Positions 29,547 to 58,173 of a stretch of DNA of 64,000 nucleotides are shown here, piece after piece. Numbering within the stretch: the first letter of the stretch is position 1; every line of letters begins with the position of its first letter. Under the pieces are notes generated by a model that was not told the origin of the DNA, made no database searches, and worked only from the letters and a program-made list of their open reading frames with translations. Both the position numbers and the translations under genes were made by a program. Source of the stretch: Flavobacterium cyclinae (GTDB lineage: Bacteria > Bacteroidota > Bacteroidia > Flavobacteriales > Flavobacteriaceae); assembly GCF_021172145.1 (NCBI RefSeq), contig NZ_CP089095.1:2953063-3017062 (forward strand), in the 5' to 3' direction.

Positions 29547-29644
29547 GTTGTGGTGTTGAAAAAATTTCTTAAAGGTAAAAATATTTTCTTTTTTTACGTC
29601 TGATAACTCAGATTTTATGGATTATCGAAAAGATAAAAATTAAA

Positions 29645-29688
29645 ACCGCAGATTCGCAGATTTAGTATTTAATCTGCGAATCTGCGGT
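29645..29688 (-). terminator. Perfect 18-base-pair palindrome, likely terminator
   Basis: Arms 29645-29662 and 29671-29688 (ACCGCAGATTCGCAGATT and its exact complement) flank the loop TAGTATTT. On the minus strand, after the 135-residue gene, the hairpin is followed by TTTTAATTTTT. It also belongs by sequence to the CAGATT/CGGATT dispersed repeat type seen at 20015-20092 and 49175-49237, so termination may be a borrowed role. Confidence 0.7.
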
Positions 29689-29702
29689 AATCTTTTTAAA
29701 AT

Positions 29703-32687: not shown

Positions 32688-32716
32688 CTGAACACTTTCA
32701 ACTGAACACTGAACAC
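32688..32716. repeat. CTGAACAC word array between batE and the 108-aa gene
   Basis: CTGAACAC occurs at 32688-32695, 32702-32709 and 32709-32716. The same word appears inside CAGTC element C (41081-41154), which links the two repeat types. The array begins 8 bases before the downstream start and reaches the batE stop. Confidence 0.7.
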
Positions 32717-33474
32717 TATTCCTTCACTTCCCTAATCGCTTCTTTGTCAATCCACGCTTTGGTTTTGTCGGTTAGTTCAACTTGTTTCCAGTTGCCTAAT
32801 TCTTCTAAGACGAAGACTTTTGTTCCTTCGTGAAGCGTTACCACATCTTCAGAACTGTTTTTTGGTTCGGCTTTCAAAGTTGTTGCTTCTGCAAAAACGA
32901 TGGCTGGATTGTAATTCGCATCATATTTCTTCTGTAAAAAAGCCGAAAAAACGGTTACGCCAATTCCGACTAAAAACAATAGAAACAAACTGAAAAAAGT
33001 GCGTTTTAAAAACACGGTATTTCCAAAATAATATCCAAGAAAAGTAAGCAAAGTCAATAAAGCCATAAAAACAGCATTCCAAGCCCAAGTATCATAATGA
33101 AATATGCTTGTGAACTCTTTTACCATTTTCTTAAAACCGACTTCTGGAAGCACTTTAATGTCGTCTATTGCCATTTTTTGCGCAAAAGATAAGTTGATGT
33201 GAATGGCTTCGTCATCTGGGTTTAAAAGCAATGCTTTTTCGTAATTGTAAATCGATGGCGCTACTTTTCCTAGTTTGTAATAGCAATTGGCCAAATTAAA
33301 ATATAAATCGGCCGATTCGTTGCCTTGGTTTACAATACTTTCAAAAGATTGTAAAGCTTGTTCATAATCGCCTTTGTTGTATAAATCGTTTGCTTTTTTG
33401 AAGGTAACATCAATGGATTCACTTGCATTGGCGAATTGAAATGTGAATATGAAAAGGAGAATGTATTTTTTCAT
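32716..33474 (-). CDS. batE: Aerotolerance operon protein BatE (TPR and SH3)
   Basis: This 252-residue protein has a signal peptide (1-17), two or three TPR repeats (about 20-95, NKGDYEQALQSFESIV, ADLYFNLANCYYKLGK), two membrane helices near 135-180 and a C-terminal SH3-like domain (TLHEGTKVFVLEELGNWKQVEL). That is the BatE layout. BatA-E were first linked to oxygen tolerance in Bacteroides fragilis; they are thought to form an envelope complex. It is separated from batD by an inserted GxxExxY cassette. Confidence 0.88.
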   Translation of the reverse strand: MKKYILLFIFTFQFANASESIDVTFKKANDLYNKGDYEQALQSFESIVNQGNESADLYFNLANCYYKLGKVAPSIYNYEKALLLNPDDEAIHINLSFAQKMAIDDIKVLPEVGFKKMVKEFTSIFHYDTWAWNAVFMALLTLLTFLGYYFGNTVFLKRTFFSLFLLFLVGIGVTVFSAFLQKKYDANYNPAIVFAEATTLKAEPKNSSEDVVTLHEGTKVFVLEELGNWKQVELTDKTKAWIDKEAIREVKE

Positions 33475-33487
33475 TTTTAATCTTTTT

Positions 33488-34002
33488 TAACCACAAAGGG
33501 CACAAGGAAGGCACTATGAGCACTATGCTTTTATTTCAAAAATTAACCACTTAAGTGGTCACTAAGCTTTAGCTATAATATTCCGTTGATGACTCTTTGT
33601 ACTCCGTTTTTTAAAAGTTTGACATTAAAATTAATTAACAACCCCAATTTACAATCGGTCAATTTTAAATAGGTTAATAACTGTGCTAAATGAACTTCGT
33701 TTAATGTTTCAACTGCTTTGATTTCAACAATAAATTTATCTTCAATAATAATATCTATTCTATAACCAACATCTAACTTTACTTCTTTATAAACTAGAGG
33801 TAATGGTTTTTGTTTTTCAACTTTAAGATTCGATTTTTTTAACTCGTAATATAAACATTCTTCATATGCACTTTCAAGTAAACCCGGACCTAATGCTTTA
33901 TGAACTCGTAAAGCACAATCAAATACTATTTTAGAAATTTCTTGTTCCGTCATAATTCATTTTTTGGTGTTCGTTGTGCCTTCTTTGTGTCCTTTGTGGT
34001 TA
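33488..34002. mobile_element. Inverted-repeat-bounded GxxExxY cassette in the bat operon
   Basis: A 515-base unit is bounded by inverted repeats of about 36 bases: 33488-33523 and 33967-34002, matching at 31 of 36 or so positions and sharing TAACCACAAAGG at the outer ends. The outer TAA on the right is the batD stop codon; the left end is 13 bases before the batE start. The only gene inside is the GxxExxY protein. A 14-base perfect palindrome ACCACTTAAGTGGT (33546-33559) lies inside the left end. Mobility is inferred from the structure; no target duplication is evident. Confidence 0.55.
33573..33953 (-). CDS. GxxExxY protein (PD-(D/E)XK nuclease-like)
   Basis: A 126-residue protein of the GxxExxY family. 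The naming motif is GLLESAY (24-30). A PD-(D/E)XK-type site is visible as Asp67 (YRIDIII), Glu77 and Lys79 (IVEIKA), followed by QLLTY (91-95), the Q-x3-Y motif of RecB-like nucleases; all key residues are kept. No activity is established for the family as far as I know. It is the sole gene of an inverted-repeat cassette interrupting batD-batE on the same strand, and has no evident link to Bat function. Confidence 0.9.
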   Translation of the reverse strand: MTEQEISKIVFDCALRVHKALGPGLLESAYEECLYYELKKSNLKVEKQKPLPLVYKEVKLDVGYRIDIIIEDKFIVEIKAVETLNEVHLAQLLTYLKLTDCKLGLLINFNVKLLKNGVQRVINGIL

Positions 34003-35775
34003 GATTTGTTTTTCAAGTTCTGAAATTCGTTCCACAGCTCGTTCAAAATCATTGGTCATGGCAATATCGGTTGCTGGAGCATAACGAGCAAACTCGCAAT
34101 CGTTCATTAATTCTATAAATCGATTAATACTTTCTTCTGAAGCATTTCTTTGTTGCAATAACTCTACAATATTTTCTTTACTCATTTCAACCGTTTCAAT
34201 ATGTAGCTTTGCCTTTAAGAAATTATGCAATGCTTTTTCCATAGCCATATAAAACGGTACTTTGTCGCCCATTTGTTTTTTCGCTTCCGACAAATATTTC
34301 TTTACTAATCGGTTATTATTTCTAACTCGGTTTCCAACCACGTCGGCATCTTTAGCTTCTTTTTGTTTTCTAGCAATCATCACAATTGGAATCAATAATA
34401 ATGGTGCAAATAACAAACTATAAAACAATCCTGAACCTAAGAAATCTTCTCTTGATTTTGAAACAAACTCGGTTTTCAGCTTATTGTATTGGAATACTTC
34501 TTTTTTCTCGATGACTTGTTTGTTCGAACTTGGCACATTGGCTACTACTGTTCCATCTCCTTCTTCAACTTCTATTGTTATTTCTTTTGAAGTAATCGTT
34601 TTATAGGATTTACTTGCCAAATCATAATATGAAAACGTTAATGGTTTGATGGTATATTTTCCTTTAAATTGAGGAATTATGGTGTATTTATCCGAAATTT
34701 TACCCGTCATTCCCGTTAATGGTGTTTGTACATTTTCGGTATGAGAAGGTTCGTACATTTCCAAAGCACTAGGGGCAACAGGTTTTGGTAACGTAAATAA
34801 TTTTAAATTTCCTTTACCCGAAACACTTACCTCTAAATCTAAAGATTCGCCTGCTTTTAACTTTGTTTTGGATGGAATTACATTAAAATCAAAATTTCCA
34901 ACAGCGCCTGAATAGCTTTCTGGTTTTCCTTTTTCAGGAAGTGATTTTACATTTATAGTTTGCGTTCCTGTAGAAAGAGATTTTTCAATTACTCGCATTT
35001 CATATTCACCAAACCAATCGCGACGGCCTGTTGGTACCTCAGCATCTAAATCAATTTTAAATGGTTCTATAGTTTTAGCGCCTGCTTCTAATGGATATAA
35101 AATTACTTTTCGAAGCACCACCATGCTATAATCTTTTCCATTGTATTTTCCACGTTCAGCGCGCAATTGTTTCATGTCGATATACTGACTCCAGAAATCA
35201 TCATATTTTGGCGCTTTGAAATTTCTGAAATTCCCAACAGTCGAACGAGGTTCGAAATATAATTTGTAAACTACTGTAACTGGTTCATTTACAAACGGAT
35301 TTTTTGTGGATAATTCGGCTACTAGATGAATTCCTTCTCCATAATTGACATTAGTAGGTTGCTGTCCTGGATACGTTGGCATTTGAATAGGATCAGTAAT
35401 CGTGATTTTTATTGGTGCCGATTTATATACCGTTCCATCATATTCAATTGAAGCAGCACCAATGGTGAATGTCCCTTTTTTAGTAGGTGTTAAATAGTAA
35501 ATAACTTGAGTAGAAATTTCTCTTTTTTGTGTTACTTTTCCATTTACAATCGTAATCGCAGTTTGATTTCCTCTATTAATGAAAGGGCCTTCTGCTTTAA
35601 AACTAGGAAATTTTGGCGGTTCAAAATTATCTCCTTCATTGTTTATGGTAAAAACCAATTGAATACGTTCATTTAGTCCATACGAACTTCTTTCTGTTTG
35701 CGCTTCAAATTTAACTTGAGCGGAAACAGTGGTATAAAAAATGGATACGAATAAAACTAAAAATATCTTTTTCAT
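34000..35775 (-). CDS. batD: Aerotolerance operon protein BatD
   Basis: This 591-residue protein has a signal peptide (1-19), repeated beta-sandwich 'oxygen tolerance' domains (about 22-420; VKFEAQTERSSYGLNERIQLVFTI pattern at the start), one membrane helix near 446-466 (LFYSLLFAPLLLIPIVMIA) and a helical cytoplasmic tail of about 120 residues. Its large periplasmic region and single late membrane helix are typical of BatD. It starts 3 bases behind batC, and its stop codon forms the end of the GxxExxY cassette. Confidence 0.9.
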   Translation of the reverse strand: MKKIFLVLFVSIFYTTVSAQVKFEAQTERSSYGLNERIQLVFTINNEGDNFEPPKFPSFKAEGPFINRGNQTAITIVNGKVTQKREISTQVIYYLTPTKKGTFTIGAASIEYDGTVYKSAPIKITITDPIQMPTYPGQQPTNVNYGEGIHLVAELSTKNPFVNEPVTVVYKLYFEPRSTVGNFRNFKAPKYDDFWSQYIDMKQLRAERGKYNGKDYSMVVLRKVILYPLEAGAKTIEPFKIDLDAEVPTGRRDWFGEYEMRVIEKSLSTGTQTINVKSLPEKGKPESYSGAVGNFDFNVIPSKTKLKAGESLDLEVSVSGKGNLKLFTLPKPVAPSALEMYEPSHTENVQTPLTGMTGKISDKYTIIPQFKGKYTIKPLTFSYYDLASKSYKTITSKEITIEVEEGDGTVVANVPSSNKQVIEKKEVFQYNKLKTEFVSKSREDFLGSGLFYSLLFAPLLLIPIVMIARKQKEAKDADVVGNRVRNNNRLVKKYLSEAKKQMGDKVPFYMAMEKALHNFLKAKLHIETVEMSKENIVELLQQRNASEESINRFIELMNDCEFARYAPATDIAMTNDFERAVERISELEKQI

Positions 35776-57694: not shown

Positions 57695-57769
57695 GTTTAG
57701 TCGCAGTTTTCAGTCGCAGTTTTCAGTAAGAAGCTCAGAAACTGCTCACTGTGAATGCGACTGTTTACT
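57695..57769. repeat. CAGTC hairpin element E
   Basis: The left arm has TAGTCGCAG and CAGTCGCAG words (57698-57720) and the right arm TGCGACTG (57756-57763). It fills the space from 4 bases after the sufT-like stop to 1 base before the DUF2480 start. Confidence 0.7.
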
Positions 57770-57772
57770 TTT

Positions 57773-58096
57773 TTACAACATTCCTAATTCTAACTTCGCT
57801 TCTTCACTCATTAAATCTTTGCTCCATGGCGGATCAAATGTGATTTCTACTTCGCATGATTTTACAGCATCAATAGATTTGATTTTTTCCTCTACTTCTT
57901 GTGGTAAAGTTTCCGCCACTGGGCAGTTAGGTGATGTTAAGGTCATTAAGATTTTTACATCATTATCTTCATTAATCATTACGTCGTAGATTAAACCTAA
58001 TTCGTAAATGTCTACCGGAATCTCTGGATCAAAAATTCCTTTTAAAACTTTGACTACGTCTTCGCCTAAGTTAATTGTATCGTTAAATTCTTCCAT
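57773..58096 (-). CDS. SUF-associated DUF59 (MIP18/SufT-like) protein
   Basis: A 107-residue MIP18-family protein: GIFDPEIPVDIYELGLIYDV, MTLTSPNCPVAETLPQEVEEKI and the C-terminal VEITFDPPWSKDLMSEEAKLELG. The conserved Cys in NCPVAE matches SufT/PaaD-type proteins that help mature Fe-S clusters on targets. Flanked on both sides by CAGTC elements (E and F). Confidence 0.92.
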   Translation of the reverse strand: MEEFNDTINLGEDVVKVLKGIFDPEIPVDIYELGLIYDVMINEDNDVKILMTLTSPNCPVAETLPQEVEEKIKSIDAVKSCEVEITFDPPWSKDLMSEEAKLELGML

Positions 58097-58103
58097 TTTA
58101 TTA

Positions 58104-58166
58104 AGTTTTCAGTCTCAGTTTTCAGTCTCAGAGCATATAGAAAACTGCAAACTGAGACTGAAAACT
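58104..58166. repeat. CAGTC hairpin element F
   Basis: Arms 58104-58125 and 58145-58166 match at 21 of 22 positions as inverted repeats (AGTTTTCAGTCTCAG at the outer left). It is the best-preserved copy, lying from 7 bases after the sufE stop to 7 bases before the sufT-like start. Confidence 0.9.
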
Positions 58167-58173
58167 AAACTAG

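Follow-up and report, generated by a model that had tools for sequence, protein, structure and literature searches.

GxxExxY nuclease-like genes in repeat-ended cassettes, often alongside gene-less hairpins, suggest a little-noticed kind of mobile element

Genes of the GxxExxY family lie in small cassettes that end in inverted-repeat arms, and these cassettes, often found alongside hairpins that lack the gene, suggest a little-noticed kind of mobile element. Its two ends are defined, near relatives either have it or lack it at a given gene junction, and the same arm grammar recurs in many phyla. At least one lateral move into the same site has taken place, and several genomes carry gene-less hairpins with their cassette's arms, one of them an internal-deletion copy. 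We consider it probable that this is a mobile, operon-dwelling nuclease cassette that feeds a REPIN-like hairpin population, with the nuclease as the presumed driver of movement.

The focal cassette lies in a 64-kb window (the whole stretch of DNA analyzed, 64,000 nucleotides) at the end of a 3.017-Mb single-contig genome. On the minus strand the order is batD (34000 to 35775; PF13584), the host gene upstream, then the GxxExxY gene (33573 to 33953; 126 aa), then a batE-like TPR/SH3 gene (32716 to 33474), the host gene downstream, and all three are co-directional. The arms, at 33488 to 33523 on the left (plus strand; units CACAAAGGG-CACAAGGAAGG-CACTATGAG-CAC) and 33967 to 34002 on the right (minus strand), form the longest inverted repeat listed for the window at the settings used. 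A sequence-only reading of this DNA had taken the gene to be the sole one between inverted repeats of about 36 bases, in a unit that filled the whole batD-batE space and whose right end supplied the batD stop codon. Each arm is indeed 36 nt, the two are 86% complementary with one gene between them, and the batD stop codon (34000 to 34002) lies within the right arm. On the batE side the left arm stops 13 nt (33475 to 33487) short of the batE start, and the cassette nearly, but not wholly, fills the junction.

The GxxExxY product scores above the curated cut-offs of its family for both TIGR04256 GxxExxY (E 1.5e-44, 151 bits against a cut-off of 35) and PF13366 PDDEXK_3 (E 2e-42, 144.7 bits against 22). 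In an alignment of 64 sequences, from which L194 was omitted for its stop codon, D67, E77, K79 and Y95 show no variation and conservation of Q91 is at least 90%, which bears out the earlier view that the PD-(D/E)XK residues Asp67, Glu77 and Lys79 and the QLLTY motif are kept. The structure model (pLDDT 93.9) has a fold matching Cas4 and other PD-(D/E)XK members, in a match list from which missing families are not counted as excluded. Its Cas4/RecB-like core fold, together with the D/ExK residues, places the protein in the PD-(D/E)XK superfamily as a minimal Cas4-like predicted nuclease; the matched Cas4 chains have 202 to 215 aa, against 126 aa here. No relatives were found in the PDB by sequence. 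GxxExxY proteins are extremely common, the family search scoring at least 8000 relatives. A protein search of viral contigs found no relative, and phage records gave none. Plasmid records numbered seven, of which six were retrieved, with arms scoring at least 14 in three of the six. Rfam gave no match to the elements in 10 sources. The literature searched, which excluded most subscription papers and all preprints, yielded no published role for GxxExxY proteins, no account of arms around their genes, and no match to twelve literal arm strings.

TIGR04256 is present in 79 of 101 genomes of the genus. The focal genome alone has five GxxExxY genes, all five with flanking inverted repeats, each of different sequence (TAACCACAAAGGGCACAAGG, TTACACAGAGCTACACCGAG, GCCACGGATTAAAGGATTTTCACGGATT, TTAGCACGCGGATGAAACGGATT and ACCGCAGATTCGCTGATT; arm scores 15.5 to 25.5), which share a grammar in which a short unit recurs every 8 to 12 nt or so. 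To score arms, the upstream flank was locally aligned with the reverse complement of the downstream flank, with a threshold of at least 14. Across the genus, arms at this threshold flank 75 of 88 GxxExxY loci (leaving 13 without), 22 of 29 four-helix-bundle (TIGR02436) loci and 1 of 29 batE loci; the corresponding rates for shuffled flanks are 1.8%, 0.3% and 1.4%. The 88 were drawn from 92 loci, the best-scoring part of all matches, after four at contig ends were dropped; one of 30 four-helix loci and one of 30 batE loci were dropped on the same ground, and one duplicate (L044) was also removed. Mismatched flank pairs from different GxxExxY loci reach the threshold in 16%, as would be expected if arm types are shared among loci; for batE and four-helix loci this control was spoiled by homologous flanks in mixed orientation.

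Arms generally consist of two to four degenerate units of about 7 nt (CRCNRRG, CRCRGATT, CATTAAG), mostly 8 to 12 nt apart, with a mode of 8. The commonest CRCNRRG units are CACAGAG, CGCAAAG, CGCAGAG, CACAAAG, CACGGAG and CACGAAG. Arm class tracks protein clade, with 13 changes on a protein tree (6 of the 88 proteins left out by length) against a shuffled mean of 37, and 0 of 200 shuffles gave so few. Each clade sits mostly at one orthologous site, so this match is not independent evidence of recognition.

The 12-mer TAACCACAAAGG was considered as a universal tag and rejected. It has two exact copies in the window (0.24 expected at one mismatch or fewer; 2 of 100 shuffles reach two) and two in the 3.017-Mb genome, both at the focal cassette. 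Across the genus it occurs in 51 of 101 genomes, shows no enrichment relative to its reversed control, which is found at more places, and does not track the gene (12 of 22 genomes without it, 39 of 79 with it). TAACCACAAAGG is only the focal copy's variant, the arms differing by lineage and sharing only the unit grammar.

The same arrangement extends well beyond the genus. Named-genome loci (the best 80 of 559) come from Bacteroidota, Chloroflexota, Verrucomicrobiota, Acidobacteriota, Planctomycetota, Proteobacteria and others, and include a cyanobacterium and a Thermoplasmata archaeon. After 6 of the 80 were dropped at contig edges, 74 had enough flank; arms scoring at least 14 were present in 59 of these and in 1 of 143 shifted windows (Fisher p 1e-37; shuffles 1.1%), and 15 were without arms at the threshold. 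When the six Flavobacterium loci are removed, 54 of 68 remain armed. Arms in these genomes include ACCACGGAGACACGGAGG, ACCACGAAGGACACGAAG, ACCGCAGAGGCGCAGAGG, AACCACGAATTAACACGAAT and GACAGGATTTACAGGATGG. The flanking of the GxxExxY gene by inverted arms is real and general.

At the batD-batE junction, read in 74 genus genomes including this one, six hold the cassette (this genome, G029, G033, G059, G070 and G071). Another 39 have a gap of 33 nt or less, two of them holding part of an arm by eye, and the remaining 29 have gaps of 39 to 149 nt, many of which by eye contain single arms, or hairpins with no gene, that belong to other classes: CCACGAATT in G021, CACAAAG-like in G089, G044 and G045, GATT in G062, and CTAAG, the four-helix class, in G056 and G094. 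Of the four relatives closest by batE, G067, G023 and G012 are empty, with batD and batE overlapping by 1 nt, and G032 has an unrelated palindrome there. Presence and absence of the cassette, together with the other elements found at this position, indicate a junction hit repeatedly by elements of similar style. A cassette of the same clade lies between batA-like and batB genes in G047.

A second junction, identified by eye as trpE-trpG, was read in 20 Ramlibacter loci, the best-scoring of 59 genomes and not a random draw. Nine contain a GxxExxY gene, G108 included; ten have no insert gene and a gap of 9 to 92 nt, the upstream stop overlapping the downstream start in the 9-nt cases; and one (L514) has another ORF that resembles chorismate mutase by eye. 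This junction too has empty sites. The G108 cassette is flanked by a 25-nt duplication (21 of 25 positions) that keeps intact both the upstream gene's end and the downstream gene's ribosome site and start, and L256 by one of 26 nt. In several Ramlibacter genomes (L504 to L508 and L517) the left arm seems, by eye, to encode the N-terminus of the GxxExxY ORF, the start of which overlaps the stop of the gene upstream.

Lateral movement was assessed from 244 same-site pairs. The largest gap is L065/L105 (G070 versus G029), in which the cassette protein is 97% identical versus 79% for the flanking genes and fourfold sites are identical at 35 of 38 positions in the cassette versus 86 of 193 in the flanking genes (p about 2e-8; the 2.4e-8 obtained was computed with 87 instead of 86). 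The high-identity stretch reaches about 60 to 70 bp inside batE, and divergence is greater in the left arm than in the gene. The other of the two largest gaps, L003/L062 (the genome's own copy 3 versus G023), is weaker, at 38 of 39 versus 206 of 292 (p 1.3e-4, computed with 207 instead of 206 and only 0.03 when multiplied by 244). By silent-site comparison, then, spread into the same site, as in homing, is clear for one cassette pair and weak for a second. Over all same-site pairs fourfold identity averages 0.45 for the cassette and 0.44 for the host, the cassette being higher in 126 of 244; this equality implies that cassette transfer is rare and vertical descent common. The reverse case also occurs: at L168/L186, a four-helix pair, the host genes are 98% identical and the cassettes only 65%. 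Within G116 there are two near-identical full cassettes, with 3 differences in 354 nt and about 35 to 45 bp of flank common to both.

Gene-less copies of the arms are numerous. An exact three-unit arm scan of a viral collection returned at least 120 stretches; in the 80 loci retrieved from them, 71 of 132 arms had an inverted partner within 120 nt. For named genomes, arms were counted with three exact 15- or 16-mers in 30 genomes, all with GxxExxY, so that only three arm types were searched directly. G102 (arm CACGGAG) has one GxxExxY gene, 57 exact 15-mers of its own type and none of the two others; 42 of the 57 form 21 inverted pairs, 40 to 68 bp apart. The elements read there comprised 13 paired hairpins and 3 single arms, two being a tandem duplication that adjoins the cassette and some adjoining another dispersed repeat of about 115 bp; comparison with a single congener gave no clean pair of filled and empty hairpin sites. 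Own-type matches likewise number 27 in G116 (CACGAAGG), against 2 and 0 of the other types, and 14 in G121 (CGCAGAG), against 0 and 0. G108, also with one GxxExxY gene, has none of the three searched strings and 47 matches to CACAGAGG, a string entered as the reversed control of another pattern. Its hairpins bear the peculiar arm of its cassette, ACAGAACACAGAGG; among the matches listed, all arm-only ones are in G108 and none in 58 congeners. The four of its hairpins that we read have flanks unrelated by eye, and their arms end as peculiarly as the cassette's, in ACAGAA or CAGAA. The cassette's arm type ranks first in 9 of the 13 genomes with at least three matches, 17 of the 30 being too poor in these strings to judge; at L211, L232, L237 and L248 the main arm type of the genome does not cleanly fit the cassette.

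One G116 hairpin, L449, ends in LKEGIKRFVL-stop, the C-terminus of a GxxExxY protein, and is by that token an internal-deletion copy. Others in G116 (L446 to L448, L450 and L451) have common flanks and form part of a larger dispersed repeat, and some hairpins generally adjoin or sit inside other dispersed repeats. The window itself has a gene-less hairpin at 29636 to 29697 (CCGCAGATTCGCAGATT...AATCTGCGAATCTGCGG), whose arm is that of the genome's fifth cassette (L005). Folding of three hairpins as DNA gave z-scores between -10.5 and -11.7. At L287 and L303, hairpins of one arm class are nested within hairpins of another.

Several of these results bear on the sequence-only reading, which had proposed a homing-like or repeat-associated mobile unit. 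Mobility and repeat association are supported; homing goes beyond the data, in which same-site cassettes on average diverge like their hosts. Empty batD-batE sites do exist in relatives, and so do solo repeats, as lone arms and gene-less hairpins. GxxExxY genes elsewhere, which it proposed to check for flanking repeats, have them in both the genus and the named genomes, with no fixed TAACCACAAAGG sequence.

How such a cassette might work can be outlined. The arms, in which short degenerate units recur at intervals of roughly one DNA turn, could be bound by nuclease multimers, or could form a hairpin in single-stranded DNA that the nuclease binds. It would then cut at the arms or hairpin, or at a matching empty junction, and repair would copy the cassette or hairpin into operon junctions. 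Surviving insertions would lie in sense orientation at stop/start junctions, where transcription of the host operon includes the nuclease; among co-directional neighbors 37 are sense versus 3 antisense. Gene-less hairpins would be mobilized by the nuclease in trans, much as RAYT proteins are thought to mobilize REPINs. Several results weigh against this account: short target duplications are not general, same-site cassettes on average diverge like their hosts, the 12-mer is as common without the gene as with it, the main arm type fits the cassette in 9 of 13 genomes, some hairpins adjoin or sit inside other dispersed repeats, and some loci are unarmed at the threshold. At the focal site, moreover, the two arms of one genome resemble each other no more than arms of different genomes do (17.2 versus 17.8).

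The GxxExxY gene might instead be a passenger. Some other enzyme, a RAYT for example, would move ordinary REPIN-like hairpins whose ends are the arms, and the gene, captured inside them, would hitch-hike. Hairpins without a nearby GxxExxY gene are abundant, and tblastn (1e-4) found neither this gene nor a four-helix gene in any of the 80 viral-collection loci; four-helix-bundle genes, with no nuclease, occupy arms of similar layout (the 22 of 29 above), and the 12-mer is not linked to gene presence in the genus. A passenger would, however, have to account for arms that accompany GxxExxY across phyla, for hairpins or arm strings that match the resident cassette's arm in G102, G108, G116 and G121, and for arm classes that follow protein clade, though a clade is mostly one site. 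We regard it as unlikely.

Doubtful to the same degree is an explanation at the RNA level, as for the intervening sequences (IVS) of 23S rRNA, in which the arms pair in operon mRNA and RNase III trims the cassette, so that selection keeps the pairing and the insertion is harmless. It would suit the orientation of the gene among co-directional neighbors (37 sense versus 3 antisense, p 2e-8) and the coupling of the two arms, which exceeds permutation at 11 sites jointly (0 of 5000), and four-helix cassettes share the anatomy described for the Coxiella IVS in the available text of PMC4990558. Yet there is no gene-strand G-U excess, with 77 sense-wobble mismatches versus 88 on the opposite strand in 74 loci, and the arms vary by unit, keeping the unit grammar over exact pairing. 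RNA pairing as the reason for the arm match was rejected for this lack of sense-strand G-U asymmetry.

A further alternative is that the gene is an old intergenic one, inherited vertically and lost repeatedly, and that its palindromes are incidental. This would fit the location of each clade mostly at one orthologous site and the host-like average silent divergence, but it is very improbable. It is contradicted already by the near-identical cassette in the diverged hosts of L065/L105, the two G116 copies and L449, and opposed also by the junctions of G067, G023 and G012, empty in three of four near relatives, by the same-clade copy in G047 and by the existence of gene-less derivatives.

A mobile nuclease cassette that feeds hairpins, the reading we prefer, has partial counterparts among known systems. 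Homing endonuclease cassettes consist of a nuclease gene alone, found at the same site in scattered species through lateral transfer. L065/L105 resembles them in same-site lateral transfer with some flanking sequence; the elements here differ in their inverted multi-unit arms, their gene-less hairpins and the large number of sites they occupy within a genome. Bacterial MITEs and IS elements have terminal inverted repeats and internal-deletion derivatives, as here (L449), but there is no DDE or other known transposase between these arms, and the constant short target-site duplication of such elements was not seen, only 2 of 52 loci exceeding the null, with duplications of about 25 nt.

REPIN-RAYT systems are described in the available text of Bertels and Rainey 2011 (PMC3116915) and PMC8049555 as short inverted doublets that form hairpins, many per genome. 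Dispersed hairpin-forming repeat doublets within one genome are what we see in the viral-collection arms and the G102 and G108 hairpins, and the likeness to those descriptions extends to lone decayed arms, a protein gene beside the same repeats and several repeat classes. As those texts present it, the RAYT gene encodes a Y1/HUH transposase; the gene here encodes a PD-(D/E)XK Cas4-like nuclease (at the focal locus the profile search finds PF13366, not Y1_Tnp), lies between both arms at operon junctions, can be multi-copy and moves laterally into the same site, and has arms built from degenerate 7-nt units in phased arrays. The 23S rRNA IVS, whose function and origin PMC4990558 calls unclear in its available text, are likewise described there as having a small ORF in a unit bordered by inverted repeats and a sporadic distribution. 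They differ from our cassettes, as far as that text goes, in that ours lie between protein genes (here batD and batE, not an rRNA gene helix), encode a nuclease and have other arm units. By analogy, the cassette appears to work most like REPIN-RAYT with another enzyme between the arms, and we file it under neither REPIN-RAYT nor IVS.

The four-helix (TIGR02436/S23) genes at L161 to L190, with CTAAG or CAAAGG arm units, lie in the sense direction between co-directional genes in 28 of 29 cases. As armed genes within the genus, they may link the cassettes to the 23S rRNA IVS. More tentatively, and with somewhat less than even confidence, we propose that cassettes and hairpins together could form a separate cross-phylum mobile class, driven by a Cas4-like nuclease that acts alone and recognizes phased arrays of units, with lineage-specific arm codes that coevolve with the protein, and that S23/four-helix cassettes, rRNA IVS included, could be a sister class. 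The decades-old question of IVS origin would then have a testable answer for S23-bearing rRNA intervening sequences, a Cas4-like enzyme would be acting as a mobile-element protein, and, if GxxExxY enzymes underlie the hairpins, many unexplained intergenic palindromes would gain an owner. With its many naturally occurring pairs of protein and DNA arm, the system also lends itself to the study of site recognition by a small nuclease.

Two further repeat arrangements were noted in this genome. At L008, positions 1541 to 2015, tandem repeats of 121 bp and 93 bp with the same arm units lie beside the second GxxExxY cassette. Within the window, CAGTTTTCAGT-type palindromes at 57700 to 57770 and 58100 to 58169, which resemble the four-helix arm style, flank a small ORF (57773 to 58096) that by eye resembles an iron-sulfur assembly DUF59-type protein.
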